Positions 2,194 to 21,270 of a stretch of DNA of 33,661 nt are shown piece by piece. The translations under genes were made by a program, and so were the position numbers. Below the pieces are notes generated by a model. That model searched no databases and was not told the origin of the DNA. It was given only the letters and a program-made list of their open reading frames with translations. Source of the stretch: a virus; the IMG/VR virus record IMGVR_UViG_3300032323_000477, positions 1 through 33,661 of that record; one strand, written 5' to 3'. Numbering within the stretch: position 1 is the first letter of the stretch; each line of letters begins with the position of its first letter.

Positions 2194-4239
2194 TTAGATA
2201 CTGCCGAAATTCTTAATGGTAATAGTTCCTACCATAGCAGCATGAGCACCACACTGGTATCTATAGTTGCCAGAGATACTATCCGGAATCTTCCAATATA
2301 ATGTACCTGATGTTTTACCCTGTGCATCTCCCCCAGTAGACACCAACCCTGATGTGCTCACGTGTACCAATCCTGTATTATAATTTGCCCCAGTGCCGTC
2401 TTGAATTAAAAAAGGATGGCCGCTGGCTCCGATCAAACTAAATGCTATGGTAGTAGCATTGATGGCAAATATCGTAGGATCGTCTGTGGTGCCATATTGA
2501 TCAAATCTGTATGCAGTGGCTCCGTTAGCAGTTACATTTAATCTCGTGATTGCCGGTAGATAGAACTGATCTACAGTTAGACCAGCGTAGTCCGTCAAGT
2601 CAGTAAATGCTGAGGCACCTGCTGAAGCTGTATTAGTGATTGTAACAGTGTCAGTGGTTGCATTGGTGGTGATTGAGATGCCTGTGCCTGCGGCTATATT
2701 AAGAGTATCAGTCGCCGACTCAGCAACAACTGAACTTTGGCCAGCTACTGCTATGGTAGTAAAGCTGTCTGATGCTGTGCCGCCTTCCGAGCCTGTAATA
2801 GTTATAGTGTCGGTAGTCGCATTAGTTGTAATAGTAATACCGCCTGCACCCACTAATGTCAAGGTGTCTGTAGCTGAATCTGCCACTACTGAACTTTGAC
2901 CAGTTACCGCTATGGTAGCAAAACTATCAGAAGCTGTGCCTCCACTAGAAACTGTGGCCCAAGTGTTGTCCCCTCTGAGATATGTGGTATTATCTCTAGT
3001 TCCAGATGCGCCTAATCTCAACACAGGTACAGTGCCGCTGGTAAGTTCAGTAGCGTTTAACGCGGTGAGATTAGCACCACTGGCCGCGGGCAATGTTGCA
3101 GGTAGTGCTGTAAGATTCACTCCGCTTACTGCGGGCAAGGTGGCTGGAAATCTAGCATCTGGTATAGTGCCTGATGTCAATTGAGTAGCATTCAATGCGG
3201 TGAGTGATGCGCCTCCACCACTAAAGTTTGTAGCTGTAAGTAGTCCAGCATCCGATATGGTTGCTGAGCTATTTTGTATAATAGTTCCTGTAGTACCGTC
3301 GTAGCGTATAATAGCATTATCGACATATCCACCACCTGCACTTAGTACATCTCCCGATCCAGATCCCGAAGCTCCTTGAGGACCTTGAGGACCTTGGGGT
3401 CCAGGTACACCTACAGCAGAAGTAGCCTGCTTTGACCCGTCTGCAAACACTATTTCATTGCCTACTACAATATCACTATCAAAAGCTACTATGGGGGTGA
3501 ATGTGATGGTGGAACTGTCTGCTGAATCTATGGTAGTTCCTACAAAGGTAATACTACCCGTGCTAGTGGTTGAATTAATTGTTATGGTGTCAGCGTTGGC
3601 ATTTGTGGTAATAGTAATATTAGAGCCAGCAGCTAGTGTTAATGTGTCGGCAGTGGAATCAGCTATTACAGAGCTCTGTCCTGCTACTACAACAGTACTA
3701 AACGAGTTAGGCAAACTAGATTCGCTGGCTACGGGTACCCAAGCACCTGCATGTGCATAATATAATTTTCCTGTATCATGTACATGTGCCACCATACCAT
3801 GATAGTCTATCGGTGATACTTCTGCGTTAAGATCCGCTAAAGTGTCCCAGTGAAATCTAATGCGATTTTTCTGACCTGTAACATCTAGCACTCCAGATAA
3901 TATTAGAGTATTTGTGCTGTCATCTAACCAAGTCAACGCAGCGAGATCGTTAACCTGCGAACCGTTGGAGGGATAGTAGGCTATTTTGCCAGCTACGCCT
4001 GGTTGAACACCACCGCTAAAGCCTGCCGAATTAGCCTTGGCAAGAAAATCTGAGTTGGAAACGTTGGCTAGATCGCTTTTTGCCAGTGAACTACCGCCCG
4101 GGGCAATTCCGTTATATAGGCGAAGAGTGTTGGTATCTCTATCGTAGAAAATTTCTCCTCTAGATCCAACTTTTCTATTAAGAAATTCGGATTCTCTAGG
4201 AATCAATCTGATATTATCTAAGATAGGTGCTTTGCTCAC
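2194..4239 (-). CDS. Tail-fibre-like protein with collagen-like stretch and C-terminal cupredoxin domain
   Basis: 681-aa fibre-type protein starting at GTG 4239 (AAAGGA nine bases upstream). The N-terminal 50 residues resemble a fibre base segment (RGEIFYDRDTNTLRLYNG). At about 276-288 there is a collagen-like run (GPQGPQGPQG) followed by a Gly/Ser linker. Three copies of a ~45-aa beta repeat (AGQSSVIADSTADTLTLAAG and relatives, ending ITTNATTDTITI) and several 'DARFPATLPAVSGVNLTAL' type repeats form the shaft. The last ~105 residues read as a cupredoxin: His608 (in GHPF) plus Cys663-x2-His666-x2-Met669 in YRYQCGAHAAMVGTI, the same Cys-x2-His-x2-Met spacing as amicyanin. That domain would bind a type-1 copper, or be a copper-free fold relative. 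It follows the enzyme cassette by 38 bases and has its own late promoter. Confidence 0.82.
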   Translation of the reverse strand: MSKAPILDNIRLIPRESEFLNRKVGSRGEIFYDRDTNTLRLYNGIAPGGSSLAKSDLANVSNSDFLAKANSAGFSGGVQPGVAGKIAYYPSNGSQVNDLAALTWLDDSTNTLILSGVLDVTGQKNRIRFHWDTLADLNAEVSPIDYHGMVAHVHDTGKLYYAHAGAWVPVASESSLPNSFSTVVVAGQSSVIADSTADTLTLAAGSNITITTNANADTITINSTTSTGSITFVGTTIDSADSSTITFTPIVAFDSDIVVGNEIVFADGSKQATSAVGVPGPQGPQGPQGASGSGSGDVLSAGGGYVDNAIIRYDGTTGTIIQNSSATISDAGLLTATNFSGGGASLTALNATQLTSGTIPDARFPATLPAVSGVNLTALPATLPAASGANLTALNATELTSGTVPVLRLGASGTRDNTTYLRGDNTWATVSSGGTASDSFATIAVTGQSSVVADSATDTLTLVGAGGITITTNATTDTITITGSEGGTASDSFTTIAVAGQSSVVAESATDTLNIAAGTGISITTNATTDTVTITNTASAGASAFTDLTDYAGLTVDQFYLPAITRLNVTANGATAYRFDQYGTTDDPTIFAINATTIAFSLIGASGHPFLIQDGTGANYNTGLVHVSTSGLVSTGGDAQGKTSGTLYWKIPDSISGNYRYQCGAHAAMVGTITIKNFGSI

Positions 4240-6257: not shown

Positions 6258-6848
6258 TTAAATAAACATCATCTGATTAATTCTGTAAGTATCTCCAACG
6301 AACCAATCAGGTTGCATTACTGCGGTGTGAACGTCAGTTTGCCTGTATAATACCAATCTATTAAACGCCATTTCTGCATATCCTAGGTGTTGTCCGGTTT
6401 CAGAATAAAAAGCTGTACCGCCATGAGATTCGTCATTGTAATTTAAATATACCGATGCTGCAAATCTACCCGGATCTGCACTATCTCTATGGGGAGTTGG
6501 CTGGTCTTGACCTTGCATTACATTTACCATAAATGTTATAAACTTAAATGTTTCACGTATGTCTTTATCGATCTTGCGAGGACCGTCATTGAAATTTTCA
6601 CTGATTAGTTTAACAAATGTATCGGCTAAACTTGTTAGATCGATACCAAGACTAATTGACAAGCCAGGGTATGTATTTCTAATCATGCTCTTAGACGCAG
6701 GAATGGAAAGAGCTAATTCTCTAACTTTTTCAGGATTAAGATAAAAGTTATCAACAATAACACATTTGGTATCACCTAACTGATGTACATGTACTTCAAA
6801 ATTAGTATTAACTGCAAATATGTCTTGTTCATTTATTTTTTTAATCAT
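6258..6848 (-). CDS. DUF6445-like 2OG-Fe(II) oxygenase superfamily protein, cassette gene 3
   Basis: 196-aa protein with a clean double-stranded beta-helix oxygenase signature: His120-x-Asp122 (PHRDSADPGRFAASVYLNY), distal His174 (TDVHTAVM) and Arg189 (YRINQMMFI). These supply the 2-His-1-carboxylate iron site and the 2OG anchor. The N-terminal VIVDNFYLNPEKVRELAL strand-helix and the GGTAFY turn are typical of DUF6445-type proteins, and the name is given on that resemblance. Its ATG overlaps the upstream stop as ATGA, so it is probably translationally coupled to the carbamoyltransferase. It probably hydroxylates or otherwise oxidises a product of the same cassette. Which product is not visible from sequence. 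Confidence 0.78.
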   Translation of the reverse strand: MIKKINEQDIFAVNTNFEVHVHQLGDTKCVIVDNFYLNPEKVRELALSIPASKSMIRNTYPGLSISLGIDLTSLADTFVKLISENFNDGPRKIDKDIRETFKFITFMVNVMQGQDQPTPHRDSADPGRFAASVYLNYNDESHGGTAFYSETGQHLGYAEMAFNRLVLYRQTDVHTAVMQPDWFVGDTYRINQMMFI

Positions 6849-8668
6849 GCTCTGTCATTGTGTTCAATCTCTACCATCATTTTAACAGCTGGAAAATAAA
6901 TGTAATTAATTCCTGAGTTGTAAAGAGTACGCATGGCATCGTCGATGGTTTCAACCAATGGCTCTCCGCCTAGATTAAAGCTGGTATTAAACAATGCAGG
7001 CACACCTGTTTGATTTTTAAATTCTTTAATTAGATTATACCAATGAAAGTTTTGTTCTTCAGTCACTGTTTGAATTCTGCAGGTACCATCAACATGTATA
7101 ACTGCTGGAATCTTTTCTTTCACGCCCGGCTGACAATTTACAGCATACATCATAGACGGAGAATCTTCCATGCCACGCAGATCAAACCAATCATGTACAT
7201 CGTCTTGTAATACTGATGCAGCAAATGGTCTAAAATATTCTCGTTTTTTAATTAAATTAACAAAATCTTTACCGTCGGCAAATGTTGGATCAAACATCAG
7301 TGATCTATTGCCTAGTGCTCTAGGACCGTTTTCGCATCGTTCTTGAAACAATGCTACAATGTTTTTAGATCTAATAGTTTTGATAACATCTTTGTAATCA
7401 ACATTTATTGTTACGCTGCCGCCGTATTTGGCCGCAGTTTCTATAACTGCATCTTCAGTAATATGTTGTACCGGACCTAAAAATAAATTTTCATCTTTTG
7501 ATCTTACTTTTGTATCTTGAGATGTTTTATAGTAATGATAAAATGCTGCACCCATAGCTGTACCTGCATCGTTCGAAACAGGTTCAACATATATCTTTAC
7601 GTCTTTTGGTAAATGCTGTAAGTAGAAATAATTAGCAACACAATTTAAACCATACCCACCGCTGATAACAATATTTTTATTACCAGTACGTTCAATTGAT
7701 TTTAAAATTAAATCAAGCACCAATTGCTGCGATTCAGTTTGGACATTGTAGGCCATGTTTCTTCTGGAGGCCAATTGTGTTAGATCTTCTGCATCAGCTT
7801 CTAGCATTTGTTGCTCGTAACGCTGCATTTGTTGTTTATCGTTGGGGTCAGTAACTGACCTATGAATAGTTTTCGGATCGTACACCCTGTCATTTAGCTC
7901 AGCATGGCCTTCTTCATTGACCAGTGCGCCATTAGGATATGTACTAGTAAATAGATCTTTATTACCGCCAAAATTACCATAAATCTTAGGTGCTTTGTTC
8001 GGTTCTCCATACGGAAACAGCCCCATGGTTTTACCCGCTTCTATCGAGTCAAATCCACAAAATCTAGTTACTGCTTCATATGCTTTAACAATACCTGTTT
8101 TATCATTAATTATAACTTCTGTACCGTTCCCATCACTATTGTAGTGTTCAGGCTTCCAAGGTCCGTTGCCCCCAAAATGCTTGTACACTTCCTTAAAGTT
8201 TGCAGGGTATGAACAATCATATATACTTTCAACTTCAAACATGGTTTGACCGTCTGGGCGTTCAATAAATGTACCTGCACCATCTACAATGATAGCACTT
8301 GCTTTATCAAACCCAGATCTATAAAATGCCAACGCGGCGTGATTTCTATGGTGTTGATCGTGATATTTAAATACTTGGGTATTAATATCGTCGATTAATC
8401 TCAACTTCCTAGCAAGTGCAGAATACACATCTTGCCTTACATAATCGTTTATTGGTTCGTCATGACCTTGTGTGTGAGATATTGCCAAATAATCGATCTT
8501 GTCAGTATAGTCAAGAATTTTAATCATACTCGCAAGCGGGCCGCCGTCATATTTGTAGCGAGATAGTCTTTCTTCTTCAATAGAAAATACAATTTGTCCA
8601 TCTTTTAAAAGACAAACTCCTGCATTATGCCCTCGAGCAATACCTGCAATGTATCCTGTTTTTTTCAT
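6845..8668 (-). CDS. Carbamoyltransferase, NodU/CmcH/TobZ family, cassette gene 2
   Basis: About 607 aa, full length for O-carbamoyltransferases, which transfer a carbamoyl group from carbamoyl phosphate (via carbamoyl-adenylate) to a hydroxyl, usually on a sugar. The N-terminal Kae1-like domain shows GIARGHNAGVCLLKDG, EEERLSRYKYDG and a His cluster with His110 in HHRNHAALAFY, then IVDGAG and ISGGYGLNCVAN. The C-terminal YrdC-like half shows ENGPRALGNRSLM, REYFRPFAASV, HVDGTCRIQTV and NTSFNLGGEPLVET. All major motifs appear intact. ATG 8668 is chosen because AAGGA lies seven bases upstream; ATG 8686 is in frame but lacks a site. It starts 24 bases after the glycosyltransferase stop and overlaps the next gene by four bases. 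The acceptor is likely a glycan made or bound by the neighbours (inference). Confidence 0.92.
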   Translation of the reverse strand: MKKTGYIAGIARGHNAGVCLLKDGQIVFSIEEERLSRYKYDGGPLASMIKILDYTDKIDYLAISHTQGHDEPINDYVRQDVYSALARKLRLIDDINTQVFKYHDQHHRNHAALAFYRSGFDKASAIIVDGAGTFIERPDGQTMFEVESIYDCSYPANFKEVYKHFGGNGPWKPEHYNSDGNGTEVIINDKTGIVKAYEAVTRFCGFDSIEAGKTMGLFPYGEPNKAPKIYGNFGGNKDLFTSTYPNGALVNEEGHAELNDRVYDPKTIHRSVTDPNDKQQMQRYEQQMLEADAEDLTQLASRRNMAYNVQTESQQLVLDLILKSIERTGNKNIVISGGYGLNCVANYFYLQHLPKDVKIYVEPVSNDAGTAMGAAFYHYYKTSQDTKVRSKDENLFLGPVQHITEDAVIETAAKYGGSVTINVDYKDVIKTIRSKNIVALFQERCENGPRALGNRSLMFDPTFADGKDFVNLIKKREYFRPFAASVLQDDVHDWFDLRGMEDSPSMMYAVNCQPGVKEKIPAVIHVDGTCRIQTVTEEQNFHWYNLIKEFKNQTGVPALFNTSFNLGGEPLVETIDDAMRTLYNSGINYIYFPAVKMMVEIEHNDRA

Positions 8669-8691
8669 TATTTTTCCTTGTGACATTTATT

Positions 8692-9678
8692 TTAAGCGCA
8701 ATCAGGTGCAGAACAACCAGCAGGTTGTTTAGGTTCGACGTATGGTCTAGCAGTTTTACTCAAAGTAGTTTTAATTCCTTTAACAATCGTCTTGATAGTT
8801 TCGTCAGCGAGTACCATTAGATTTTCATTATGTCTATCAATTCTAATGTCTACTGCAACTCTTATTGGGGAATACCTTCTTTCGTCTTTGCCGTTATCAA
8901 TTATAGTAAGTGTGCTGCTGCCAGGATACGAAATATTTTCAGGGAATGTACCGCCTATAACTACTGTGCCTGGTTTCTTTAGGGCATGTGCAATATGCTG
9001 TCCTACCGAGTCACACCCCAAGAAATAATCAGCGTCATTGATAATTGCAGTCCATTGTAATAAACTAACACTCTCTGGTACCATTACTCCTAGTGCTCTA
9101 TTTCCAGGAATTTTTAACTCGCTCATCATTATAACAGCATAATCTTTATTCAGTTCTTCAAGTATTTTTATAATATCATCAACCTCAAATGATCTACCAC
9201 TTTCGTCAATGATAGTATTGCCTTGTATTCCAGCTGTTTTTCCAAATGGTTGGAAGATTATTACTTGTTGCTTTTTAAAATGCTTTCTAGCTTCATTGAC
9301 TAGCTCGTTTGCTTGTGCTATATCCTTTTTGCCAATAAAGATATCGTATTCTTTTGTTTCTGGAATGATTTCGGGCGGAACATCGTAGTTGATCAACATG
9401 TCAAACGCCTGCACAAGATTGCATCTTTGAGTAAAGTATGCGTTTAGTTTATACGGTTCGGGAGTTATGATTTCTCTATCTTTTAATTTTTCAAAAAGAT
9501 TTGGGTCGGTAGCATGATGCACGTTACTTGCTAAAATTTTGCTGGTTAAATATAGATCTATCCAACCTTCAACAACAATGACTGCTGTTGGATCAGTATT
9601 TTTAACATAGTGCTCTAATGCAGGAATGGCACATAGTACTCGGCCTGCACCGCCGTTTATAAAAAATGCTTTTTTCAT
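8692..9678 (-). CDS. GT9-like glycosyltransferase (ADP-heptose:LPS heptosyltransferase fold), cassette gene 1
   Basis: 328-aa GT-B-type glycosyltransferase resembling family GT9. The N-terminal GGAGRVLCAIPALEHYV corresponds to the 'G-x-GD-x-L-x-x-P-x-L' acceptor-domain start. The C-terminal nucleotide-sugar domain shows IIFQPFGKT and the hallmark YFLGCDSVGQHIAHALKKPG followed by VIGGTFPENISYPG, matching 'D-x-x-h-x-x-D-[ST]-G-x-x-H-x-A-x-A'. Donor and acceptor cannot be predicted. The C-terminus ends in an unusual short tail (PAGCSAPDCA) with a Cys-x4-Cys pair outside the fold. The ATG at 9678 has AAAGG eleven bases upstream and a late promoter 31 bases upstream. It heads the cassette and probably sets the sugar that later enzymes modify. 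Confidence 0.82.
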   Translation of the reverse strand: MKKAFFINGGAGRVLCAIPALEHYVKNTDPTAVIVVEGWIDLYLTSKILASNVHHATDPNLFEKLKDREIITPEPYKLNAYFTQRCNLVQAFDMLINYDVPPEIIPETKEYDIFIGKKDIAQANELVNEARKHFKKQQVIIFQPFGKTAGIQGNTIIDESGRSFEVDDIIKILEELNKDYAVIMMSELKIPGNRALGVMVPESVSLLQWTAIINDADYFLGCDSVGQHIAHALKKPGTVVIGGTFPENISYPGSSTLTIIDNGKDERRYSPIRVAVDIRIDRHNENLMVLADETIKTIVKGIKTTLSKTARPYVEPKQPAGCSAPDCA

Positions 9679-9792: not shown

Positions 9793-10509
9793 TTAGTAAA
9801 CGCCTGGGGGTAGATTTTGTAAAGCATCAGCATCGGAGGCATCTCTGTCTGCGATTCTAATAACCTGAACATTCTCATCTTCAAACTCCATATTGGGCCC
9901 GTCTTCAGGACTGCGAGGAAATCTCACAAGATAATTAGGAACATCTGCCCAATCTACAGGAAGGTCTCTGAGTTTTTGTCTATAATCCAACCATTGCTGT
10001 TTTAGAGCTTCTGGCATGTCTGGAGCAATTTTGCCATCACTCAGAGCTAGTTTTGAATCTCTTACACTTCTAATAAAGTCATCACTTCTATCTCTTTTGT
10101 TCTCAAAGAATTGAAGCGGTGCTGTGTAATCTCTAGTTACACTGTCTTTGTCATAAACAATTCTAATATCTGAAGGATCTACAACTGTGGCATTTGGTTG
10201 ATCAACTGGGCCAACAGAAACTTCGTAGATCTTTGGTTTTTCTAACCCGCCGTAGATCAATCCAATTTTGCAGCAGTTTATGTCAGTGTCTGCTTTTAAT
10301 ATTTCTCTTTTCAGATCCAATGGAAGCGGACGATCTGGTTCGTCTTCTGGTGCAAACGCCTGCATCAAATACCCAGTTTCTTTATCGAGCCACATGACTA
10401 TTTCTTCTGGGCCTTCGTATAACTGTGTACTGGTTTTACCTAACGTATTTTCCAACGAATACAAATGATCCGGTATACTATATGTCAGCATTTTGGTTAT
10501 TTTTGCCAT
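9793..10509 (-). CDS. Tail fibre assembly chaperone-like protein
   Basis: 238-aa acidic protein. Residues about 165-200 contain ALKQQWLDYRQKLRDLPVDW followed by NYLVRFPRSP, closely matching the 'W-x-x-YR-x-x-LR-D-L-P ... v-x-W-P-x-x-P' signature of phage tail assembly chaperones (Phage_tail_APC type). Such proteins help fold or trimerise fibre or adhesin subunits and are typically encoded just after them, as here: the gene follows the two Cys-rich adhesins. The start ATG at 10509 has AAGGAG that begins right after the previous stop (TAAGGAG), so expression is coupled. The long N-terminal part (residues 1-150) is not recognised and may give partner specificity. Confidence 0.75.
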   Translation of the reverse strand: MAKITKMLTYSIPDHLYSLENTLGKTSTQLYEGPEEIVMWLDKETGYLMQAFAPEDEPDRPLPLDLKREILKADTDINCCKIGLIYGGLEKPKIYEVSVGPVDQPNATVVDPSDIRIVYDKDSVTRDYTAPLQFFENKRDRSDDFIRSVRDSKLALSDGKIAPDMPEALKQQWLDYRQKLRDLPVDWADVPNYLVRFPRSPEDGPNMEFEDENVQVIRIADRDASDADALQNLPPGVY

Positions 10510-10519
10510 TTATTTCTCC

Positions 10520-11347
10520 TTAACTATACGTTATTTTAACAAGGCCGCCGGCGCCAAAGCTGCCCCAACATGCGTTTACAGAGTCAGTTGCGTGGCTTGC
10601 GCCACCGCCACCTGGGAAAGCTGCGTGTGCTGAACAGCAGGCCAAGTTACCTACGCAGCGATGTTTACCACCAATTCCATGAGGTGCGGCCCATGGGCCG
10701 CTTGGGCCGCCTGCTACTGAGAACGCATCAGCACAACAGTTGTATTGATGATTGTATGATCCAGCTGTACCTCTAAAACACATATCAGAACCGTATACTG
10801 GCGTATCGCAAGCGTTACTGCCCCAACCAGCATTATAGTTACCTACGTTACACTGAACATTACCAATGTGGCAGTTATAACAGTTTGAGATCATGTCCCA
10901 GTTAGTAAAGCCACCCATGCCACCAATGGCACAGAAATTGCTCAAGCCAGTGCCGTTAACAAAACTGGTGCATCCATGGCGACAATTTTGGTTACATGAA
11001 CAGCAGCAGCTACAATCTGATGAGCCTGCGGCACACACTGTGTATACTGCGCCATCTGCAAATCCATGCACTGATTTTTGCAGTGTTCTTACGCCGTAAT
11101 TGCCACCTTGCCCGCCGATACCGTGATCACTGTCACCACCTGATGAGCCACCTGGGCCACCACCTGATAGTATTTCAAACTTAATTGTTGTGGTGCCTGT
11201 AGGAACTGTAAAAGCGCAACAGCGACCACCATTTTGAGGGCTCCAATTGTTGGTATTCCATACCCATATTTCATAAACTTCTGGAATTTTACACTGATGT
11301 TGACTATTAGCGTAAACGATACCACAATTTGATAATTGTACTGGCAT
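10520..11347 (-). CDS. Cys-rich, Gly-rich adhesin-like protein, copy A
   Basis: 275 aa with 24 cysteines (8.7 percent), very unusual for a phage protein made in a reducing cytoplasm. The N-terminus (CGIVYANSQHQC) is a fibre-base motif like the 'IVFADGS' seen in other fibre genes here. Residues 45-70 (FTVPTGTTTIKFEILSGGGP) match the start of the Gly-rich domain common at phage fibre tips, and the end (GSFGAGGLVKITYS) is its last strand. Between are Gly-rich loops and a cluster of seven Cys within residues 112-126 (DCSCCCSC, NC, GC). Paralogue of the adjacent gene; AAGGAG precedes the ATG. The next gene is a fibre assembly chaperone. Probably a distal host-recognition protein, with Cys used for disulfides or metal binding after release. 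That role is inferred. Confidence 0.8.
   Translation of the reverse strand: MPVQLSNCGIVYANSQHQCKIPEVYEIWVWNTNNWSPQNGGRCCAFTVPTGTTTIKFEILSGGGPGGSSGGDSDHGIGGQGGNYGVRTLQKSVHGFADGAVYTVCAAGSSDCSCCCSCNQNCRHGCTSFVNGTGLSNFCAIGGMGGFTNWDMISNCYNCHIGNVQCNVGNYNAGWGSNACDTPVYGSDMCFRGTAGSYNHQYNCCADAFSVAGGPSGPWAAPHGIGGKHRCVGNLACCSAHAAFPGGGGASHATDSVNACWGSFGAGGLVKITYS
10911..11095 (-). repeat. Near-identical core shared by the two Cys-rich genes (copy A)
   Basis: This 185-base block differs from 11753-11937 at only five positions by eye, at a constant offset of 842 bases, while flanking parts of the two genes are more diverged. It encodes the Cys cluster and the surrounding Gly-rich core. Confidence 0.85.
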
Positions 11348-11361
11348 TTTCTAATTTCTCC

Positions 11362-12189
11362 TTAACTGTACGTTATTCTAACAAGGCCGCCGGCGCCAAA
11401 ACTACCCCAGCATGCACTAACTGATGCAGTTGCGTGGCCTGCGCCACCGCCACCTGGGAAAGCTGCGTGTGCTGAACAGCAGGCCAAGTTACCTACGCAC
11501 ATGTGTTTACCGCCAATTCCGTGGGCTGTACTAATTGGTCCAGAAGGTGCTCCTGCAACAGAAAAGTGATCAGCACAACAGTCATATTGAGCATTATATG
11601 ATCCAGATGTTCCTCTGAAACACATATCAGATCCATATACTGGCGTATCACAAACGTTGGTAATCCAACCGGCATTATAGTTACCTACATTACACTGAAC
11701 ATTACCAATGTGGCAGTTATAACATTGTGAGATCATGTCCCACGAGGTTGACCCACCCATGCCACCAATGGCACAGAAGTTGCTCAAGCCAGTGCCGTTA
11801 ACAAAACTGGTGCATCCATGGCGACAATTTTGGTTACATGAACAGCAGCAGCTACAGTCCGATGTGCCTGCGGCACACACTGTGTATACTGCGCCATCTG
11901 CAAATCCATGCACTGATTTTTGCAGGGTTCTTACGCCATAATTACCACCTTGGCCTCCACACCCGTGATCAAAGTCACCGCCTGATGAGCCGCCTGGGCC
12001 GCCGCCTGATAATATTTCAAACTTAATTGATGTAGTTCCATTAGGTACTACCCAAGCGCAACATTGCCCGCCGTTCAGTGGGCTCCAATTGTTGACATTC
12101 CAGACATAGATTTGTTTTTCTTCTTCAATCACGCATTTGTGTGAACCGTCAGCAAAAACTATTCCGCAACTTGATAACTGTACTGGCAT
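11362..12189 (-). CDS. Cys-rich, Gly-rich adhesin-like protein, copy B
   Basis: 275 aa, exactly the same length as copy A, with 25 cysteines. Architecture is identical: SCGIVFADGSHKC base motif, WVVPNGTTSIKFEILSGGG opening of the Gly-rich domain, the Cys cluster CSCCCSCNQNC, several Gly-rich loops and a closing AGGLVRITYS strand. Differences from copy A are concentrated at residues 10-45, 145-180 and 200-230 and include an extra Cys near residue 77. This pattern suggests a conserved scaffold with variable receptor-facing segments. It begins two bases after the stop of the S74-domain fibre. No strong Shine-Dalgarno is seen (AGAGAG only), so coupling to that gene is likely. It may be an alternative or heteromeric partner of copy A on the same fibre. 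Confidence 0.8.
   Translation of the reverse strand: MPVQLSSCGIVFADGSHKCVIEEEKQIYVWNVNNWSPLNGGQCCAWVVPNGTTSIKFEILSGGGPGGSSGGDFDHGCGGQGGNYGVRTLQKSVHGFADGAVYTVCAAGTSDCSCCCSCNQNCRHGCTSFVNGTGLSNFCAIGGMGGSTSWDMISQCYNCHIGNVQCNVGNYNAGWITNVCDTPVYGSDMCFRGTSGSYNAQYDCCADHFSVAGAPSGPISTAHGIGGKHMCVGNLACCSAHAAFPGGGGAGHATASVSACWGSFGAGGLVRITYS
11753..11937 (-). repeat. Near-identical core shared by the two Cys-rich genes (copy B)
   Basis: Partner of the block at 10911-11095, five mismatches over 185 bases by eye. The strong local identity against more diverged flanks points to a recent duplication or to gene conversion within the core. Confidence 0.85.
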
Positions 12190-12191
12190 TC

Positions 12192-13067
12192 TTAATTCTC
12201 TCTTTTCATAATTTCAATTTCTTCTTTTAGAGATTTAACAGCCTCTATCAGCAAGGGAATTAGTTTGTCATATCTTACAGCAAGATACCCGTCATCTCTT
12301 TCAACTACAGCTGATGGTATTACTTCTTTTACTTCTTGAGCAATAACTCCCACGTCCTGCATGGTGCGTTCTGGGTACATTTCTTGCGCAATTTTATTCC
12401 AGTGATATTGATATCCTGATAATTTTAACAATTTTTCTAGGCTGTTATCAATCTTTGAAAGATTTTCTTTTAGTCTGCTATCTGAAGATGCATATGAATA
12501 TATATCTGCACCTACATACAAAGCACCACTGATACCAACACCGCCAGTAACTACTAAGGTTCCAGTGGTAGTGCTCGAAGCAGCAGAGGCACCTGCTAAA
12601 CTCAACCTACCAGTGCTTGGCTGATACGTCATTTTAGTAGTTGACACATTTGAACTAGTGATAGCTCCTGAGGTAGCTGTAGTGAACAACGGATAATGTG
12701 TAGTAGCAGACGCTGTTTGATCAGAAACTGTTACAGATTTACTAGTCCACGATAGTGTGCCTGACGCATTAGTAGTTAGTACTTGATCTGATGAGCCATC
12801 TGCAGCTGGCAGTGTCCAAGTTACGTTTGAACTAATTGTTGCCGGTGCTTGGAATCCTACCCAATTTGAGCTATCGCTATCTGCGAATCGCAAATCAGTC
12901 TGTGCATTTAATTGAACATTTGCAGTAGAAACAACCTGGCCAGTTCCGCCTGGACTAAGAGTAATGTTTTGGTCCGCCGCTGTGGACAAGGCCGAGTCGG
13001 GCGAAATTTGAACAGTTCCTAATAGTGTTGAACTACCTACAAGTCCGCCTGTTATTCTTCTTGCCAT
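12192..13067 (-). CDS. Tail fibre protein with C-terminal S74 intramolecular chaperone
   Basis: 291 aa. The first ~190 residues are low-complexity beta-rich fibre sequence (SPGGTGQVVSTANVQLNAQT, FADSDSSNWVGFQAP, GTLVVTGGVGISGALYVGAD). Residues 193 to the end form a Peptidase_S74 domain: ASSDSRLKENLSKI supplies the Ser195/Lys200 dyad that cuts the chain just before Ser195 after trimerisation. It is followed by GYQYHWN, DVGVIAQEV, VRYDKLIPLLIEAVKSL and a C-terminal coiled coil. Such domains fold trimeric fibres or spikes and are then released. The mature fibre would therefore be about 194 residues. ATG 13067 is preceded by AAGGAT. Translation probably continues into the Cys-rich genes. Family identification is firm; receptor role is inferred. 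Confidence 0.9.
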   Translation of the reverse strand: MARRITGGLVGSSTLLGTVQISPDSALSTAADQNITLSPGGTGQVVSTANVQLNAQTDLRFADSDSSNWVGFQAPATISSNVTWTLPAADGSSDQVLTTNASGTLSWTSKSVTVSDQTASATTHYPLFTTATSGAITSSNVSTTKMTYQPSTGRLSLAGASAASSTTTGTLVVTGGVGISGALYVGADIYSYASSDSRLKENLSKIDNSLEKLLKLSGYQYHWNKIAQEMYPERTMQDVGVIAQEVKEVIPSAVVERDDGYLAVRYDKLIPLLIEAVKSLKEEIEIMKREN

Positions 13068-13082
13068 GATCTTATCCTTTTA

Positions 13083-13403
13083 TTAAGCTGTTGATGTTTC
13101 AATACCGTAGACCACAGCATTTACACTAGCAGCACTAGATCTTACCACTAGTAATTTTCCTGCATCTATTACAAGGCCTGTACGCTCCAGTACACCCTTA
13201 GCACTTAAACTGGTATCATATTCAAGATATTCAGAATCTGCTGGTGTTGCTGACGATGACATCGCTATTCTGACAGTCACTGCTGATGCACTCCTGTTTA
13301 CTACACTTAAAGTAACCACTGAAAATGTGTTTGCGGGTACTGTATACAGAGTAGTATTGGTCGCTGCTGATAGATCTGCTACTCCTAGTCTTCCTGTTGC
13401 CAT
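13083..13403 (-). CDS. Small beta-rich virion/decoration-type protein
   Basis: 106 aa, rich in Ala, Ser, Thr and Val, with predicted beta strands (TTLYTVPANTFSVVTLSVVN, AVTVRIAMSS, LLVVRSSAASVNAVVYGIE). The pattern 'strand - VPAN - strand - NRS - strand ... end strand' is shared with two other small proteins in this window (at 27314 and 30931), pointing to a common beta-sandwich type seen in marine phage virions. GGAG lies eight bases before the ATG. A weak late-promoter variant (ACTAAATA) sits 20 bases upstream, overlapping the stop of the giant fibre gene. Specific function unknown; a capsid, tail or fibre accessory component is plausible. Confidence 0.75.
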   Translation of the reverse strand: MATGRLGVADLSAATNTTLYTVPANTFSVVTLSVVNRSASAVTVRIAMSSSATPADSEYLEYDTSLSAKGVLERTGLVIDAGKLLVVRSSAASVNAVVYGIETSTA

Positions 13404-13422: not shown

Positions 13423-13430
13423 TATTTAGT
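13423..13430 (-). promoter_or_regulatory. Possible weak late promoter (ACTAAATA)
   Basis: Minus-strand octamer with one mismatch to NATAAATA, 20 bases upstream of the ATG at 13403 and overlapping the stop codon of the 2614-aa gene. A similar variant sits at almost the same distance before the 2614-aa gene itself. Confidence 0.3.
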
Positions 13431-16400
13431 TCAAAAAGTAATTGAGTGCTAACGGTAACCCGATAACTCCGCCTCTGAAATCAAAGGTAGCATTCATTTT
13501 AATTGGTCCTGTAGTTGTGGTAGTGATTATATTAGAGCTAATAAAAATACTACCTGCTGTCACTGAGTTAACGTTCAAGCTAGCACCACCACCACCAATC
13601 TGGCTGGCGATATAGGCTTTGATAGCTCTCTGTGTCGGTACGATATTATCTGAATCTGCCGTAAAGAACGGGTCTGTTGAGAATTCAGTAATCGTAGCCG
13701 ATCCGCCACCTAAGGTAACGTTACCTAGATTAAGTTCTTGTAATCCACTGATATTAAACGCATCAGCATTTAACGTAGCAACACCAGTGCTTTGTTCAAT
13801 AGCAAACAAGTCACCAACTCTAAAATTACCATCTTGGTCTGTGGCTGTAAAGAACACACGACCTCCACCGTTTTCAACAGTTTCATTGGCTGGAACTGGT
13901 ATTTGTGATGGTAGTCCTGGATAGTTGGTTTCTGTAAAATTGCCAGTACCTATATCTAAGAAATCGTGCCCGGTTAATCTAACCTGACTGTAACGCAGTC
14001 TAGTTGTCACAGTGACAGCGTCATCGGGTGCTTCTGCTATGGTTAGTGTTGGGCTTATTTGTAAGAATGCTGTGTAAGCGCCAGCGTTAACGCCTAAGAA
14101 TGTAATCACATTAACTAATTTGAATGTACGGTCTGGTAAGTGTCCAAACACCACGTTAGATCCAGGAGTTGGCTGGGCGGAAATCTGTCTCACTGCCACA
14201 AACGATCCTGGTTGGAATACATTTGCATAACCGTCGCCAATATCCACTTCACAGCTACTGGTCACATACTGAGAGCCTCTGTTGATGAATGATGGGTTAG
14301 CCAATACTCCTGATCCTTTTCTTACAGTCACTGGAGCTTCAAAAGTATTGTTAGGATCTGTAAATGTTATAGTTGGTTCGGTAGTATATCCTGATCCAGG
14401 CTCTGTGATATTAATTTGGAATATCTTGTTAGCTGCTACCCTTGCACGAGCTCTAGTAGTGGCTCCTGTTCTAATGTAAGTGGCCACTGTACCTGTACCA
14501 CCGCCAACTCCCACAAATTGACCATAACGGTTTCTATTACCAAATGTCACTGCTGAGAATCCGCTAGCTGCTGTGCTAGTAGTTCTTAGAGTCCAGGTAA
14601 TACCATCTGGTGATGTTGCTGCTGCTGTAGTTGTGCTTACAGCAAGGAACACTCCCTGACCGTATGTGATCTTAGTCCATGATGCTGTGGCTGGTAATGT
14701 ACTAGCTGTCCAAGTAATGCCATCTAAGCTGTAGGCAGCTACAGTACCGCTGGTGCTTGATACAGCAACAAATCTGTTATTACCATAGGCAATGCTGTTC
14801 CAGTTTGACGAACTAGGTAGTGCGCCTGCAGTCCATACACCTGTTCCTGTGGTAGAATAATTAGTAACAGACGTTCCGCTCTTGATTGCTACAAATCTGT
14901 TTTTGCCGTAAGCGACTGCTGTGAATCCAGTTGTAGTTAATGTACCAGTTTGATCCCAAACCTCACCGTCTCCACTAACTCTCACAGTGGTTACATCGCT
15001 GCTGATAGCTACGAAGTTTTGTGAACTAAATCCTCCAAAGGCCACATCGACCCAAGTCGCAGAAGTAACAATGTTAGCTGCGGACCATGTGATACCGTCC
15101 GCAGAATATGCGGCTGTGGTATTCGCTGAGGTTCCTGCTACTGCCACGAATCTACTTACTTTGCCTATCGTGGATCCATCATCAAACAACCCAGCAGTTA
15201 TGGCTGACCAATTAGCTGCACTTGGCATTAGACTTGTTCTTGTATCCCAAGCAATTCCGTCTTCAGATGTTGCACCTACTGTAGATCCTGTGCGTAGAGC
15301 CACATATCTACCGCCGATGCCGTATCCTGCGTGATCAAAGTTTAAGATAGCTCCAGTTGATGCATTAACTGCGGTGATAGTTATTACTAGATCATTGGCT
15401 GTACTTAACCCACCTAAGCTAGTACCTAGTATGGTAATAGTCTGTAATCTTACATAACCAGTACCTGCTGACTGTAGCGAAGGTGTATATTTCCATCCGT
15501 TTCTAATTACACTAAACGTAGCGCCAACACCTGCACCGCTATAAGTACCTGTAACTGATGTGTATACCGCAGCAGTTTCACCATATTTTACAGCTGACCA
15601 TGTGCCTGATGTTGGCAATGCGGCTGCTGTTGATGTGTAACCAGGTGCTGAGAACGTTACTCTAGGTTCAATGATGTATGTGCTAGAAGCATCTGGTGAC
15701 ACAATAGCTGTGCCTGCCACTAAATGATCAAATCCTGCAGTACCGTCTGATTCTTTAACTAATCCAGCTACCTTTGTTCCAGAATTATAAGTGGTTATGA
15801 TACCAAACTGGCCGACTCCTGCGCCACCTGTTAACACGATCTTCATACCAATGTATGCTGTGCTAGACTCGCCGTCTGTGGCAGCGATCGTTACAGAAGT
15901 TGAAGAACCACCTTGGGCAGTATTTGAATTAGTGATGTATCCAAATCCACCAAAATTTCCCTCAGCTTCTTCAGCGTCAGTGCTGTCTTCAAGCAGATCC
16001 AACATTCTTACTTCATATACAGCATCGTCACGGAATTCGTCTTGCTGAACTGAGCCGTTTAGCCCGCCACCTGTAATCACATAGGTGACTTCAGTATAAT
16101 CAATACCTGCATTGGTAAATTCAAATTGTGTTAGTGCCGATCCGTCAGTAACGATACGATCAATCACTGCTTCAAATTGCAATCTATTATCAACAACGGC
16201 TGTACCAGGAGTTTCCTCAGCGTCAAACCCTTCTGCTACTCCACCAAAATCTCCGTATGAGCAGTTACCGTTAGTACCACGGATCCTGCCGCCGTTTTCT
16301 GCCAGATATCCAACATGGCAGTAGTAGGTAAACACAGAAACAAGTTCTGCACGACCGTTATTAGTGATCCATGCACCAATACCATCACTTAGTACCTGTG

Positions 16401-19400
16401 TAAAGTCATTGCTAACTATAGAATCATTACCACCGTTGTGCAATGCGCCGTCAATCTTTTGACCAACGCAAGCAGTCCCCAATGTGGTTACACCTTGTAC
16501 ATATGGCGAACGAGTAATAATCCATACGCGATAATCTTCTGGGCCCCAACCTGGGTCTAGGGATGCATACGCACCAGCTGAAACTCTAGAAGTTCCAAAT
16601 TCATTAGGTGCTAGCAAGTCGCCAGTGAGCCCTTGTAATGTCATATCTCTAACACCAGTGCCGTCACGTAGATAGTACATGTCTTCTTCTAGGCTTCCTG
16701 TAACAGCATTAGCATAGTATCTTGCTGCGAATCTTGATTTGTAGTTACCTGGATATTTTAAATCATATTTCAATGCATCAATATATGTACCAACATCTCG
16801 TAGGCATAATGCGCTGTTATAAAACAAGCTCACTGTCATAGATCCTGCAGCATCAGATGCGATATCTAATGCTGTATTTGAATCTCTAGTTGTAGCGATC
16901 TTAAAGGTTGTTGAACTTACAACATTCTGTATGTAATATGTAGTACCTGTGCTGATGCCACCAAACACAGTACCTGTAAACCTTATTGCTGTGTTGCGTT
17001 GCATCCAAGCAGTGCTGGTACATGTAAACACATCTGTGGCCGCTGTGGCATTGGTTACTGTAGTTGTATAAGTTGAATCAATGTAAGCATCAATTTCTGC
17101 TACGATATAGTCTCTGTTGCGCTCTAATTGCAGCACAGCATAGTCAACCATTCTATTGCCTGAAGCACAACGACTTCCTTCATTAGTAGCACCGTAGACG
17201 ATATCATCTACCATAGTCATCAGCGTTTCAATACGAGCCTGTGCAGTTGCATTACCGCCTACATTAGCTAGTGCTTCTGTCTTGGCATTAGTTAATGCGT
17301 CTCTGGTAATGGTTTTTTGATTACCAACAAACACATCTGCTGCTGAAGACCTTAGGTAGGCGTATGCTGCTTCTCTAGATTTGAAGTTGCTGTTGAACAT
17401 AAAGTCAAACATCACAGCTTCTAATATTAATCGAGTATCTCTAATACATTTGGTTTGTAGATATCGAATTTTTGTAACACCATTACGTGTACCTGTTCCG
17501 CTTGGAAATACCGCGGTAAACGCAGTACCACCCGACGATAAGCAAGATACAACAATGGCTGTTATGTTAACAATATCGCCTGCTGCTAATCCATGGGTCG
17601 CAGTAGTTACTACCGCATATCCTGTAGAGTTATTATAGACAAAGTTAGTAATTGCTAATTCTATTCCAGTAGATTTAGTTACAATTCCACCGCTGACATA
17701 GGTATGTGCTAGATCAGTTTTCCCAACATAGATTCTAAAATCTGTCGAAGTCAATGAAGTTTCGTCCACTACAAAGTCAGTGTGCCATGCTACTGCATTT
17801 AGATCATCTACAACATTTTGAACAATGGTTTCTTGAGCAGCATCTAAAGTTACCGCGGCTGCGATTAGCGCAGTGGTTGATGTAACTGCATTAGTGGCTG
17901 TAGGGTAATCTATAACTTCCATGTCTATACCAAATCCAGTACCGTCGGTGAATGATGCTAACACTGAACCACCATATGTGGCTGCAAGTTGGAATGTGTT
18001 AGTGTTTACTGTGCCTACTACCCAGTATTTTACACCGTTAGTTAACCCGTTACTAGTTTCTCTAGGAATCACCGCATCACCTACACTTAATCCATGATTA
18101 TTGCTGGTAAGTGTGTTTGTACCAGATATAGTAGTGACTGTGATCTGTGGGACTGTAGCCTCAGTGGAATCGCCTTGTATGATATTAGTAATAATATCTA
18201 CCAATGCTCCTACTGTGGCATTGGCAGCTGAACCACCTGTTAAATTAGTACTGTCAGTCCACTGTGTTGCGGCATTACCTGTGGATTTTGTCACAGTGGT
18301 ATTAGCAATGATTTGTTGTACCACTGTCTTCAATCTTCCATAAGCGGCCACTGTGGCTGCGATTTCTGTGCTGTCAATCTGTAAAGTTGTGCTGTTATCA
18401 CCATCAAAATATGCTGTACCAGCTACTAGGGTAGCCCATGATCCTCCATAGGTTAAATCATAGCTCATAGCGTCAACAATAAATGCCACATCACGTTTGC
18501 ATTTAGTTCTGCTGTACTTAACTGCAGGGAAATTCACTGACAAAAACGCAGTAATTTCTTCTTTGATAAATTCTTTATTTTCAAGCAGTAGTTTTCTCGC
18601 ATCACCAAACCCAGATAGAAATGTAGTATTATATCCTGTAGGGGTTGCAGAACTCACCATAGCTGTAGAGCTGATCTTAAAATCAATCTGATGCTGCATC
18701 AATCTCACTAACTGCTTAACATCGGCTACTTCGTCTGTGCTGGCATATGGAAATACCGCACTTTGAACTGCTGTATTACCGGAGCTTTCAGTTACATCAG
18801 TACCTAGAACTATTTGCCCAACTACAGTTTCTAATCTTGTTAGTGCTCCTATAGAATATGCTGCATCTGATCTATTTGTTAGACTACCTGCAGGTCCTGC
18901 ATTAGTTGAACGTAGCTCATCGCCTTGTACACAGGTCTGTTCTGGAACAATGATTGGTAGTGTTTCTCTGTACTGCCCAGTTGCAATATTAATAAGATTG
19001 TTAGGACTTCTACGAGCAGGCACACTGGCCAATGCTGCTGCGATCTGCGGAGCGGTCACTGCTGCTGCACGGGCAGTGATTGCGTCTGTGATCACTTCAA
19101 CTAGGGCTGCTGCTGTAGTGTAGGCTCCAGGTTCTGCTGTGAGATCAGCATTAAAATACTGTGTTACTTTAGCAGTCGAATTATCGCCGTTTAGATTCTG
19201 ATAGTTTACTGCCGGTGCTGTCTGTGCTAGCACATCTTCAACTACAGTTACCAAATAGTTGTAGGCCGCAACTGATTCATCTGATTCTATAGCAAGTCCC
19301 GGATAAGCTTCTGTTTCTGTTTCGCTGAGTCCGCCTATAAGAGCATTAGCTGCTCCTCTAGTTTTAACGTTGCCGCCATGTCTTAAGTCGTAGATTAATG

Positions 19401-21270
19401 CGTCAACAACAAAGCCCGCATCTCTTTCGCATTTAAAATCATCGTAGACGAAAGCAGAGGTAAACGGTGCAATGTTATTTGTAATTTGATTCTGTATAAA
19501 TTCTGTAACTTCTCGTTGTATGAACACACGATTTAGTTCTAGTAGATATGTAGCATCAGGATTTCTAGGACCGCGTTCTACCTGTTCACATGCATAACGA
19601 ATAGTTTTCCAAGGTTTATCCCAAGTCTTGCCATGTATAGGGGAAGGAAGATCAACACCATGCGGTGCTACAAAATATGAATGATCGGTTTCGCCTAAGG
19701 TGACCCATTCTGGGTCTACACCGTCTGAACGCAATAGCTGACCTTCACGTCCTATAGGCAATCTTGTAGGACCAGATCCGCTATAATAAACCAAATCTCC
19801 TCTAACTGATAAAATATCAAGTTCAGAACCGATGTTTAATAAGCTCCAATAGGTACCTGTAGTATCTTGATCTGGCCTTGAGTTAGCCTGTCCACCGCCT
19901 TCTGCTCCTACTGTAGATCCATCGTCGGCTTCTGATCTATGTGCCAACACGCAGATATACGCATTTGCACCATATCTTACAGCATCACCTTGTAGATATT
20001 CTCTATCATCGGCCCAATTACCTTGCCAATCGATACCAGAATTTAATTTAGTCCAATATGAAGTGTTTGGTGGTTCTGCAGATACTGTGGCAGTCATTGT
20101 GCCGCTAGCATTTGCAGTTATATTAAATGTTGTACCGCCTGGGGTAGTGCTGATAGTGATATTGCCAGCCGCTACAGTTTTTACATAATATCTACCAGTG
20201 GTAAACACATTGCCAAATGTAGTTCCAGTAAATCTCACAGTCATTCCTACTACAATGCCTGTAGTTGAGGCTATAGTAAACTGATCATTTGATGCAGTTA
20301 CAGCGGTTACTGTATAAGTGTTTGAAGGAGAGTTTGCAGTAGCAAGATAAGTGTATCCACCTACTCTAACAACTTCTCCAATCTTGTATGTTGTTGTATT
20401 GGTCCAATCGGATTGGAATTTCAATCCTTCAGTAAACAAATCCCAATCTGTGGTTGTGATTACAGGGTTCGCTGCTGCAGATGCGGCAGTATGAACAGTT
20501 TTAGCTATGTATTGATTACCACCGTAAACAACTATGTCGCCTGGTTGATAGAGTGTAGCTGAATTCCATGTGCTTTCAAATTCTGCACCTTCTGCGAACT
20601 GTGCCCAACGACCTGCTGTGCTGTCTGTTAAGAATGCTGCATCAGCAGTGTGTTGTGTGGTACAGATCCAAAGGCCTGCACCGTATTTTACAACGTCATT
20701 AAGTTTGTATCTAGTTCCTGTAACCCAAGTGCTTTTATATTCTACGCCTTGGTTGAAACTATCCCATTTAGCTTGATCAGCTTCTAGCCCTGATGCTGTA
20801 GTAGCTGCAGATGTGTGATGAAGATTACACACATAGGTGTATCCACCGTATCTAACTAGGTCGTTTACTTTGTATCTTGTGCTGACTGTCCAAGCGTTTT
20901 TCCAATCAAATCCCTCGGCATATAATGTCCACTTGGCTTGATCAGCTTCTAATCCTAGAGTAGCAGTAGCGGCAGATGTGTGACTGTCGTTACAGATGTA
21001 TAATAATCCACCATATTTTACAACATCGTTGATTTTATAAAGTGTAGCAGTATTCCAGTCGCCGGTCCATGCTTGGCCGTCGCTCATCTGATTCCACTTT
21101 GTTGGATTATATTCTAGATCTGTATTAAAATCTGCAGCAGATGTGTGACCCACTGCACAAATATAAGTGCGTCCACCGTATCTTATTACATCATCTATGT
21201 AATAAGTTGTGGCGGCGGCCCAATTACCTTTCCATACAAATCTAATTCTACCTAATTTAAATTCTGCCAT
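13426..21270 (-). CDS. Giant fibre-like protein 2 (2614 aa): CBM-like repeats, beta-helix, seven-bladed propeller
   Basis: Very large virion fibre candidate. Residues 1-480 hold about seven repeats of the type 'W-x3-W-x3-T-x-Y-x3-D-x-V-x-YGG-x-x-Y-x-C-x3-HTS', resembling small CBM5/12-like carbohydrate-binding modules; repeat 6 carries a beta-rich insertion. A region near 530-850 resembles the start of a right-handed beta-helix (WDKPWKTIRYACEQV). Four copies of a C-x-RD-x5-DA-x-x-YDL module begin at Cys614, 924, 1275 and 1489. Residues about 1985-2265 contain seven 'RFVAV...S-DGITWT...W-x-x-IAYG' blades, as in a beta-propeller. The C-terminal 300 residues (GHDFLDIGTGNF, FFTATDQDGNFRVGDLF, DNIVPTQRAIKAYI) are shared with the neighbouring giant. 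MAEFKLGRIRF also matches its N-terminus, so the two are paralogues. It probably binds polysaccharide receptors. Confidence 0.88.
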   Translation of the reverse strand: MAEFKLGRIRFVWKGNWAAATTYYIDDVIRYGGRTYICAVGHTSAADFNTDLEYNPTKWNQMSDGQAWTGDWNTATLYKINDVVKYGGLLYICNDSHTSAATATLGLEADQAKWTLYAEGFDWKNAWTVSTRYKVNDLVRYGGYTYVCNLHHTSAATTASGLEADQAKWDSFNQGVEYKSTWVTGTRYKLNDVVKYGAGLWICTTQHTADAAFLTDSTAGRWAQFAEGAEFESTWNSATLYQPGDIVVYGGNQYIAKTVHTAASAAANPVITTTDWDLFTEGLKFQSDWTNTTTYKIGEVVRVGGYTYLATANSPSNTYTVTAVTASNDQFTIASTTGIVVGMTVRFTGTTFGNVFTTGRYYVKTVAAGNITISTTPGGTTFNITANASGTMTATVSAEPPNTSYWTKLNSGIDWQGNWADDREYLQGDAVRYGANAYICVLAHRSEADDGSTVGAEGGGQANSRPDQDTTGTYWSLLNIGSELDILSVRGDLVYYSGSGPTRLPIGREGQLLRSDGVDPEWVTLGETDHSYFVAPHGVDLPSPIHGKTWDKPWKTIRYACEQVERGPRNPDATYLLELNRVFIQREVTEFIQNQITNNIAPFTSAFVYDDFKCERDAGFVVDALIYDLRHGGNVKTRGAANALIGGLSETETEAYPGLAIESDESVAAYNYLVTVVEDVLAQTAPAVNYQNLNGDNSTAKVTQYFNADLTAEPGAYTTAAALVEVITDAITARAAAVTAPQIAAALASVPARRSPNNLINIATGQYRETLPIIVPEQTCVQGDELRSTNAGPAGSLTNRSDAAYSIGALTRLETVVGQIVLGTDVTESSGNTAVQSAVFPYASTDEVADVKQLVRLMQHQIDFKISSTAMVSSATPTGYNTTFLSGFGDARKLLLENKEFIKEEITAFLSVNFPAVKYSRTKCKRDVAFIVDAMSYDLTYGGSWATLVAGTAYFDGDNSTTLQIDSTEIAATVAAYGRLKTVVQQIIANTTVTKSTGNAATQWTDSTNLTGGSAANATVGALVDIITNIIQGDSTEATVPQITVTTISGTNTLTSNNHGLSVGDAVIPRETSNGLTNGVKYWVVGTVNTNTFQLAATYGGSVLASFTDGTGFGIDMEVIDYPTATNAVTSTTALIAAAVTLDAAQETIVQNVVDDLNAVAWHTDFVVDETSLTSTDFRIYVGKTDLAHTYVSGGIVTKSTGIELAITNFVYNNSTGYAVVTTATHGLAAGDIVNITAIVVSCLSSGGTAFTAVFPSGTGTRNGVTKIRYLQTKCIRDTRLILEAVMFDFMFNSNFKSREAAYAYLRSSAADVFVGNQKTITRDALTNAKTEALANVGGNATAQARIETLMTMVDDIVYGATNEGSRCASGNRMVDYAVLQLERNRDYIVAEIDAYIDSTYTTTVTNATAATDVFTCTSTAWMQRNTAIRFTGTVFGGISTGTTYYIQNVVSSTTFKIATTRDSNTALDIASDAAGSMTVSLFYNSALCLRDVGTYIDALKYDLKYPGNYKSRFAARYYANAVTGSLEEDMYYLRDGTGVRDMTLQGLTGDLLAPNEFGTSRVSAGAYASLDPGWGPEDYRVWIITRSPYVQGVTTLGTACVGQKIDGALHNGGNDSIVSNDFTQVLSDGIGAWITNNGRAELVSVFTYYCHVGYLAENGGRIRGTNGNCSYGDFGGVAEGFDAEETPGTAVVDNRLQFEAVIDRIVTDGSALTQFEFTNAGIDYTEVTYVITGGGLNGSVQQDEFRDDAVYEVRMLDLLEDSTDAEEAEGNFGGFGYITNSNTAQGGSSTSVTIAATDGESSTAYIGMKIVLTGGAGVGQFGIITTYNSGTKVAGLVKESDGTAGFDHLVAGTAIVSPDASSTYIIEPRVTFSAPGYTSTAAALPTSGTWSAVKYGETAAVYTSVTGTYSGAGVGATFSVIRNGWKYTPSLQSAGTGYVRLQTITILGTSLGGLSTANDLVITITAVNASTGAILNFDHAGYGIGGRYVALRTGSTVGATSEDGIAWDTRTSLMPSAANWSAITAGLFDDGSTIGKVSRFVAVAGTSANTTAAYSADGITWSAANIVTSATWVDVAFGGFSSQNFVAISSDVTTVRVSGDGEVWDQTGTLTTTGFTAVAYGKNRFVAIKSGTSVTNYSTTGTGVWTAGALPSSSNWNSIAYGNNRFVAVSSTSGTVAAYSLDGITWTASTLPATASWTKITYGQGVFLAVSTTTAAATSPDGITWTLRTTSTAASGFSAVTFGNRNRYGQFVGVGGGTGTVATYIRTGATTRARARVAANKIFQINITEPGSGYTTEPTITFTDPNNTFEAPVTVRKGSGVLANPSFINRGSQYVTSSCEVDIGDGYANVFQPGSFVAVRQISAQPTPGSNVVFGHLPDRTFKLVNVITFLGVNAGAYTAFLQISPTLTIAEAPDDAVTVTTRLRYSQVRLTGHDFLDIGTGNFTETNYPGLPSQIPVPANETVENGGGRVFFTATDQDGNFRVGDLFAIEQSTGVATLNADAFNISGLQELNLGNVTLGGGSATITEFSTDPFFTADSDNIVPTQRAIKAYIASQIGGGGASLNVNSVTAGSIFISSNIITTTTTGPIKMNATFDFRGGVIGLPLALNYFLN

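Follow-up and report, generated by a model that had tools for sequence, protein, structure and literature searches.

The closest described counterpart of the proteins considered here is gp24 of Pam3, a cyanobacterial phage fibre protein (7YPX) which occurs in virions, is assembled by the chaperone gp25 and combines glycine-rich loops and a conserved stem with a variable distal tip thought to touch the host (PMC9608196). Neither cysteine nor disulfides are ever mentioned in the text of the Pam3 paper (PMC9608196). The S16 gp38 adhesin (6F45) similarly combines a Gly-rich stem with variable loops at its distal end, which are responsible for host recognition, and in what is cited of it there no Cys framework is mentioned (PMC9608196). 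Disulfides in phage tails have been described for phage Milano, the virions of which contain an extensive disulfide network that includes the receptor-binding proteins, these being disulfide-linked to the baseplate (PMC10811340). The proteins involved are, however, different ones, the Milano structural proteins averaging 2.1% Cys and the bonds being those of the sheath, the baseplate and the attachment of the fibres, not of a Gly-rich tip (PMC10811340).

Two tandem genes with a predicted identity as Cys/Gly-rich tip proteins are encoded on the minus strand of the window, the whole 33.7-kb stretch of viral DNA (an IMG/VR record) analysed here, and are the only copies of their family within it. 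Copy 1 (11362..12189) and copy 2 (10520..11347) each code for 275 aa with 49 Gly and 10 His, and contain 25 and 24 Cys, respectively. The ORF calls and counts agree with the sequence-only reading of this DNA, which had described two equal-length tandem 275-aa ORFs with 24 and 25 Cys and whose range of 10520-12189 is exact. Between the copies 233 of 275 residues (85%) are the same, and each of the 24 Cys in copy 2 has its counterpart in copy 1, where Cys77 is the sole extra one. Both carry the motif CSCCCSC at residues 112-118, on the minus strand at 11836..11856 in copy 1 and at 10994..11014 in copy 2. The dN/dS values of 0.08-0.14 between the window copies and their close orthologues, and of 0.20 between copy 1 and copy 2, indicate that they are real genes, both under selection. 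Comparison of the codons of the two copies reveals a near-identical tract at codons 89-145 (minus strand; 11755-11925 in copy 1 and 10913-11083 in copy 2), where the copies differ at 4/57 codons versus 94/218 elsewhere and synonymous differences are almost absent too, and which was probably derived by gene conversion between the window copies.

Both proteins match the profile of phrog_4205 (function unknown) over most of their length (copy 1 E 5e-53; copy 2 E 8e-52). The Pfam family PF21722 (Gly_rich_2) is matched by copy 1 (E 2.8e-6; 27.9 bits versus a cut-off of 24.3) and, 0.9 bit under this cut-off, by copy 2 (E 6.8e-5; 23.4 bits). Members of phrog_4205 in S-SSM7 (SSSM7_114-116), S-CAM3 and P-SSM2 (PSSM2_304/PSSM2_306) are direct homologues which are equally Cys-rich and share the gene order with fibre, chaperone and carbamoyltransferase observed in the window, although their identity to the window proteins is no more than 26-33% and they are annotated as hypothetical. 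Among 313 distinct full-length homologues, obtained by scans of viral contigs and cultured phages, Cys accounts for 6.8-11.8% of the residues (median 10.2%), with 21-38 Cys per chain across the lineage, while for the remaining ORFs of these loci, counted from 150 aa upwards, the median is 1.2% and the 99th percentile 4.7%. The claim that about 9% Cys, including CSCCCSC, is above normal thus holds for the family at large: as all 313 homologues contain at least 6.8% Cys against a background median of 1.2%, the Cys content is not a matter of chance and, judged by these sequences, is a trait of the family, which is widespread among marine cyanophages. The alignment-based homologue scan required the peptide NFC, which itself contains a Cys and may have biased the sampling. 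When sampling was repeated by single-protein scans anchored on two neighbours, phrog_8954 and the chaperone, a Cys-rich gene was found upstream in 41 of 47 distinct loci, the upstream sequence in the remaining six being too short for one.

Cultured relatives comprise S-SSM7/S-SSM6a, Sf-FS3, S-CAM1, S-CAM3 and P-SSM2/P-SSM5, all of which infect Synechococcus or Prochlorococcus and in whose annotated records the homologues are only listed as "hypothetical". They were not matched by tblastn of a window protein against the cultured phages at 1e-5; weak matches at a threshold of 10 led to the homologues, which were then confirmed by profile search. These relatives point to picocyanobacteria as the host, not with certainty, the same virus family including the Pelagibacter phage HTVC008M. 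Only three MAG contigs among the bacterial genomes carry homologues, and there is therefore no evidence for a cellular reservoir. Sequence searches of the PDB yielded no relatives of the window proteins, and no account of such proteins was found in open-licence papers when cysteine-rich or glycine-rich was combined with cyanophage.

An AF2 model of copy 1, built from 139 sequences (pLDDT 74.6; pTM 0.76), has the Pam3 fibre 7ypx as its best Foldseek match in the PDB (E 2.8e-6, prob 1.00, TM 0.50/0.54, 257 columns). This match extends over most of the chain, despite an identity of 14% between gp24 and the window protein, and is followed by a second Pam3 fibre entry (7yfw) and the Bxb1 tail tip. 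Matches in the viral library are led by the homologues from S-CAM3 and P-SSM2, together with many tail proteins rich in Gly, and S16 gp38 is not among the Foldseek matches listed for the model. Weak likeness to the glycine-rich domain of the animal receptor ALK (7mzy, 7nx4; E 0.03-0.2) is not significant and represents an analogy only. A domain like that of Gly-rich phage fibre tips, which the sequence-only reading had recognised, is thus supported by both the PF21722 match and the fold. The lowest confidence in the model is seen at residues 1-3, 112-121 (containing CSCCCSC) and 164-175. That Cys-dense loops are among these stretches is as expected if they are ordered by cross-links or ligands absent from the model, although other causes are possible. 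Proteins of the same domain family by profile occur in the related phages S-SM1, HTVC008M, Syn9 and P-SSM2, but these contain 0-2.6% Cys and 22-41% Gly, compared to 6.8-11.8% Cys and ~15-20% Gly in the window family; the Cys counts are 0/350 in S-SM1, 0/297 in HTVC008M, 2/266 and 4/154 in Syn9 and 2/485 in a second, 485-aa P-SSM2 protein. The proposal that Cys replaced or reinforced polyglycine loops is in keeping with these figures, Cys having been added to the fold and Gly being less abundant than in the Cys-poor kin. The Gly-rich genes of Syn9 (L227) look duplicated, and a 392-aa ORF in this locus consists of two half-copies joined via an apparent out-of-frame stretch.

The tip genes are embedded in a tail fibre module, all genes of which are on the minus strand. 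Adjoining copy 2 is a gene (9793..10509) for a 238-aa protein with 2 Cys, the C-terminal part of which matches the tail-fibre assembly chaperone family PF16778 (E 9.6e-9) and which also matches phrog_9740 and phrog_4912 (tail fiber assembly), so that the assembly chaperone earlier suggested to lie next to the pair is indeed present. Its AF2 model (pLDDT 93.5) gave no match in Foldseek, including to Pam3 gp25 (7ypx), which at 162 aa is shorter than the window protein, and the chaperone assignment is based on the PF16778 profile and on a match of the chaperone's own profile to 2kz6, a solved structure to which no function has been assigned. On the other side of the pair are genes for a fibre protein with a C-terminal Peptidase_S74 intramolecular chaperone (12192..13067; PF13884 E 1e-15; tail fibre PHROGs), a 106-aa protein with similarity to a tail-fibre PHROG (13083..13403; phrog_11338 E 3e-11), kept upstream of the S74 gene, and a 2614-aa tail fibre protein (13426..21270; phrog_9851 tail fiber E 7e-169). 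Across the loci, a chaperone gene is located directly downstream of 113 of the 115 arrays of tip genes and fibre genes are located upstream. The chaperones contain 0-5 Cys, the fibre proteins have nearly none (0% in the orthologues of the S74 protein) and the other genes of the operon are Cys-poor. As the chaperones, the fibres and the Gly_rich_2 kin are all Cys-poor, Cys-richness is a property of this tip lineage.

Further downstream, also on the minus strand, are two conserved partners, a phrog_8954 protein (8692..9678; E 3e-128), with weak similarity to glycosyltransferase family 9 (PF01075 E 0.0016, under the cut-off), and a NolO-like carbamoyltransferase (6845..8686; PF16861 E 3e-55, PF02543; phrog_1601), as well as a DUF6445 protein (6258..6848; PF20043 E 1e-20). 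The former two, often with DUF6445, are mostly found downstream of the tip genes and chaperone (6258-9678 in the window; e.g. 8274-12006 in L034), and in the S-SSM7-type phages a DUF6445 homologue sits between the chaperone and phrog_8954. Together they possibly form a modification cassette for the tip, the virion or host glycans. Just beyond the carbamoyltransferase and DUF6445 genes, two 2OG-Fe(II) oxygenase genes (PF13759; 4278-4889 and 5614-6255) flank a 241-aa ORF of unknown kind, a trio that recurs in some relatives. At 2194-4239 a 681-aa protein is encoded, the C-terminal part of which matches the baseplate wedge/tail fibre connector phrog_677 and which has a long N-terminal extension. 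In L163, an ORF downstream of the Cys-rich array (7864-8322, starting MKITIVGGGTAGWMCAAAMAHK) presumably resembles the flavin-dependent tryptophan halogenases.

Within the window subfamily, comprising 30 representatives with >50% identity, 18 Cys are invariant in 30/30, including C112, C114, C115 and C118 of the CSCCCSC motif. Retention of Cys is 0.98, 0.95 and 0.91 at 80-90, 65-80 and 50-65% identity, respectively, the highest among all residues, while below 50% identity it is no better than that of Gly. Where Cys is lost in the subfamily, it is replaced by G, N, H, Y, R or L as often as by S or A. Free replacement of Cys by other small residues, which would have spoken against a role for them, is thus not observed above 50% identity, where they are the best-retained residues. 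Mean entropy is 0.44 at Cys as opposed to 1.11 at their non-Gly neighbours, and Cys positions have lower entropy than random positions (permutation, p 6.5e-4). In the window subfamily the Cys therefore form a conserved framework while the residues that separate them vary, as in disulfide-braced extracellular proteins. Family-wide, eight Cys (105, 115, 126, 139, 180, 204, 231 and 237 in copy 1 numbering) are found in at least 92% of sequences and the remainder form clade-specific sets, so that across subfamilies the number of Cys is more conserved than their position. The S-SSM7-type clade largely lacks Cys at 112, 114, 118 and 122 and has another motif, CSCNRC, in a different loop. Alignment of homologues had been proposed as a means of finding which Cys are invariant and which are paired; it delivers the former, while for pairing the covariation is thin. 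In one clade C44 and C116 are missing and C42 and C90 are present instead, and two lineages without C122 have new Cys at 38 or 120. These changes look coordinated and are suggestive, with few events, and Fitch parsimony of co-gain and co-loss of Cys columns on the tree likewise gives a weak signal from few events. A preference for even numbers of Cys was not seen (67 even and 84 odd at 90% clustering), so that a chain will often have one or more Cys that are free, bonded to another subunit or engaged with something else.

The 115 arrays contain three (75), two (26) or one (14) copies. In the three-copy clades each array position mostly forms its own clade across phages (69 and 15 arrays), indicating that the tandem copies are old and distinct. 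Both copy order and orthology are kept across phages in the three-copy arrays (L034, L036, L037 and relatives), a pattern compatible with heteromeric tips or with three distinct specificities.

On balance, the window genes appear to code for the tail-fibre tip, i.e. receptor-binding, proteins of a Kyanoviridae-type phage, with a chaperone-assembled Gly-rich fold braced by Cys, most likely through disulfides formed after release. The data directly establish the ORFs, the selection acting on both copies, the conservation of Cys, the similarity in fold, the conserved order of genes and the existence of Cys-poor kin; from these we infer, along with the identity, the location in the virion, receptor binding and the state and timing of the disulfides. 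Docking to the fibre would be the task of the N-terminal segment (approximately residues 1-45), where variability is highest, while the rest of the chain would adopt the Gly-rich fold seen in Pam3 gp24, its loops presenting a variable host-contacting tip. Assembly would be performed by the adjacent PF16778 chaperone in the reducing host cytoplasm, where the Cys most likely stay reduced. Release into oxygenated water would then most likely produce a dense disulfide network, stiffening otherwise flexible loops, with the constant Cys framework holding the loops and the residues between Cys free to vary.

Among disulfides, metal and thiol exchange, disulfides are only favoured. The main rival, which we consider unlikely, is that the Cys clusters bind Zn, Cu or Fe and so structure the tip loops in the manner of metallothioneins, possibly engaging host metal-uptake receptors. 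The dense CSCCCSC, CxC and CC motifs, the ten His per protein, the Cys counts without even preference, the low confidence of the CSCCCSC loop in a ligand-free model and assembly under the reducing conditions of the cytoplasm, which permit metal thiolates, would all suit such a role. The motif is, however, largely invariant in the window subfamily and absent from others, the S-SSM7-type proteins having CSCNRC in another loop, neither H124 nor the CxxC at 156/159 is conserved throughout the family, and Pfam gave no match to a metal-site family for the window proteins. Attachment driven by the exchange of thiols and disulfides with proteins of the host surface, or by a redox switch, seems very improbable: the sequence-only reading had raised thiol exchange as a general option and the Cys-rich loops are probably exposed, but it is the whole framework rather than a single CxxC that is conserved, and no redox-active enzyme-like or thioredoxin-like fold or family was matched in Pfam, PHROGs or Foldseek. 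Least credible is functionless drift or low-complexity expansion, for which only the different Cys positions of the subfamilies speak and which is already contradicted by Cys retention exceeding that of any other residue at >50% identity, dN/dS of ~0.1, 6.8-11.8% Cys in 313/313 members and the finding of a Cys-rich gene in each sufficiently long locus sampled through the neighbouring genes.

A mixed arrangement, which we regard as quite unlikely, would combine a conserved disulfide core with further Cys, free or inter-subunit, through which copies 1, 2 (and 3) are joined covalently as a heteromeric tip or the tip is attached to the fibre. It would accommodate the stable orthology of the tandem copies in those clades that have three of them (69 and 15 arrays), the common odd Cys counts and the variable N-terminal Cys at 4, 8, 19 and 38 in the presumed docking segment, and has a parallel in the baseplate-linked receptor-binding proteins of Milano (PMC10811340). 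Against it, the upstream fibre proteins offer almost no Cys for bonding and 14 arrays have a single copy. Taken further, and with comparable doubt, the one to three tandem paralogues could each supply a different subunit to a receptor-binding tip that is heteromeric and covalently cross-linked. Its cystine scaffold would present hypervariable loops, lysis into oxic water would switch the reduced, assembling form to an oxidised, infectious one, and the products of phrog_8954, the carbamoyltransferase and DUF6445 would perhaps decorate the tip.

Gly-rich tip adhesins are a known kind of protein, of which the Cys-rich version is a new variant. To our knowledge, recognition of Synechococcus and Prochlorococcus by T4-like cyanophages is largely undefined at the protein level, and for a sizeable group of these phages the Cys-rich genes provide good candidates for the tip that binds the receptor. 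A protein with ~10% Cys which folds in a reducing cytoplasm raises the question whether it is oxidation following lysis, or metal, that controls the infectivity of marine phages, and the cultured phages with homologues (S-SSM7, S-CAM1, S-CAM3 and P-SSM2) make this question directly testable.
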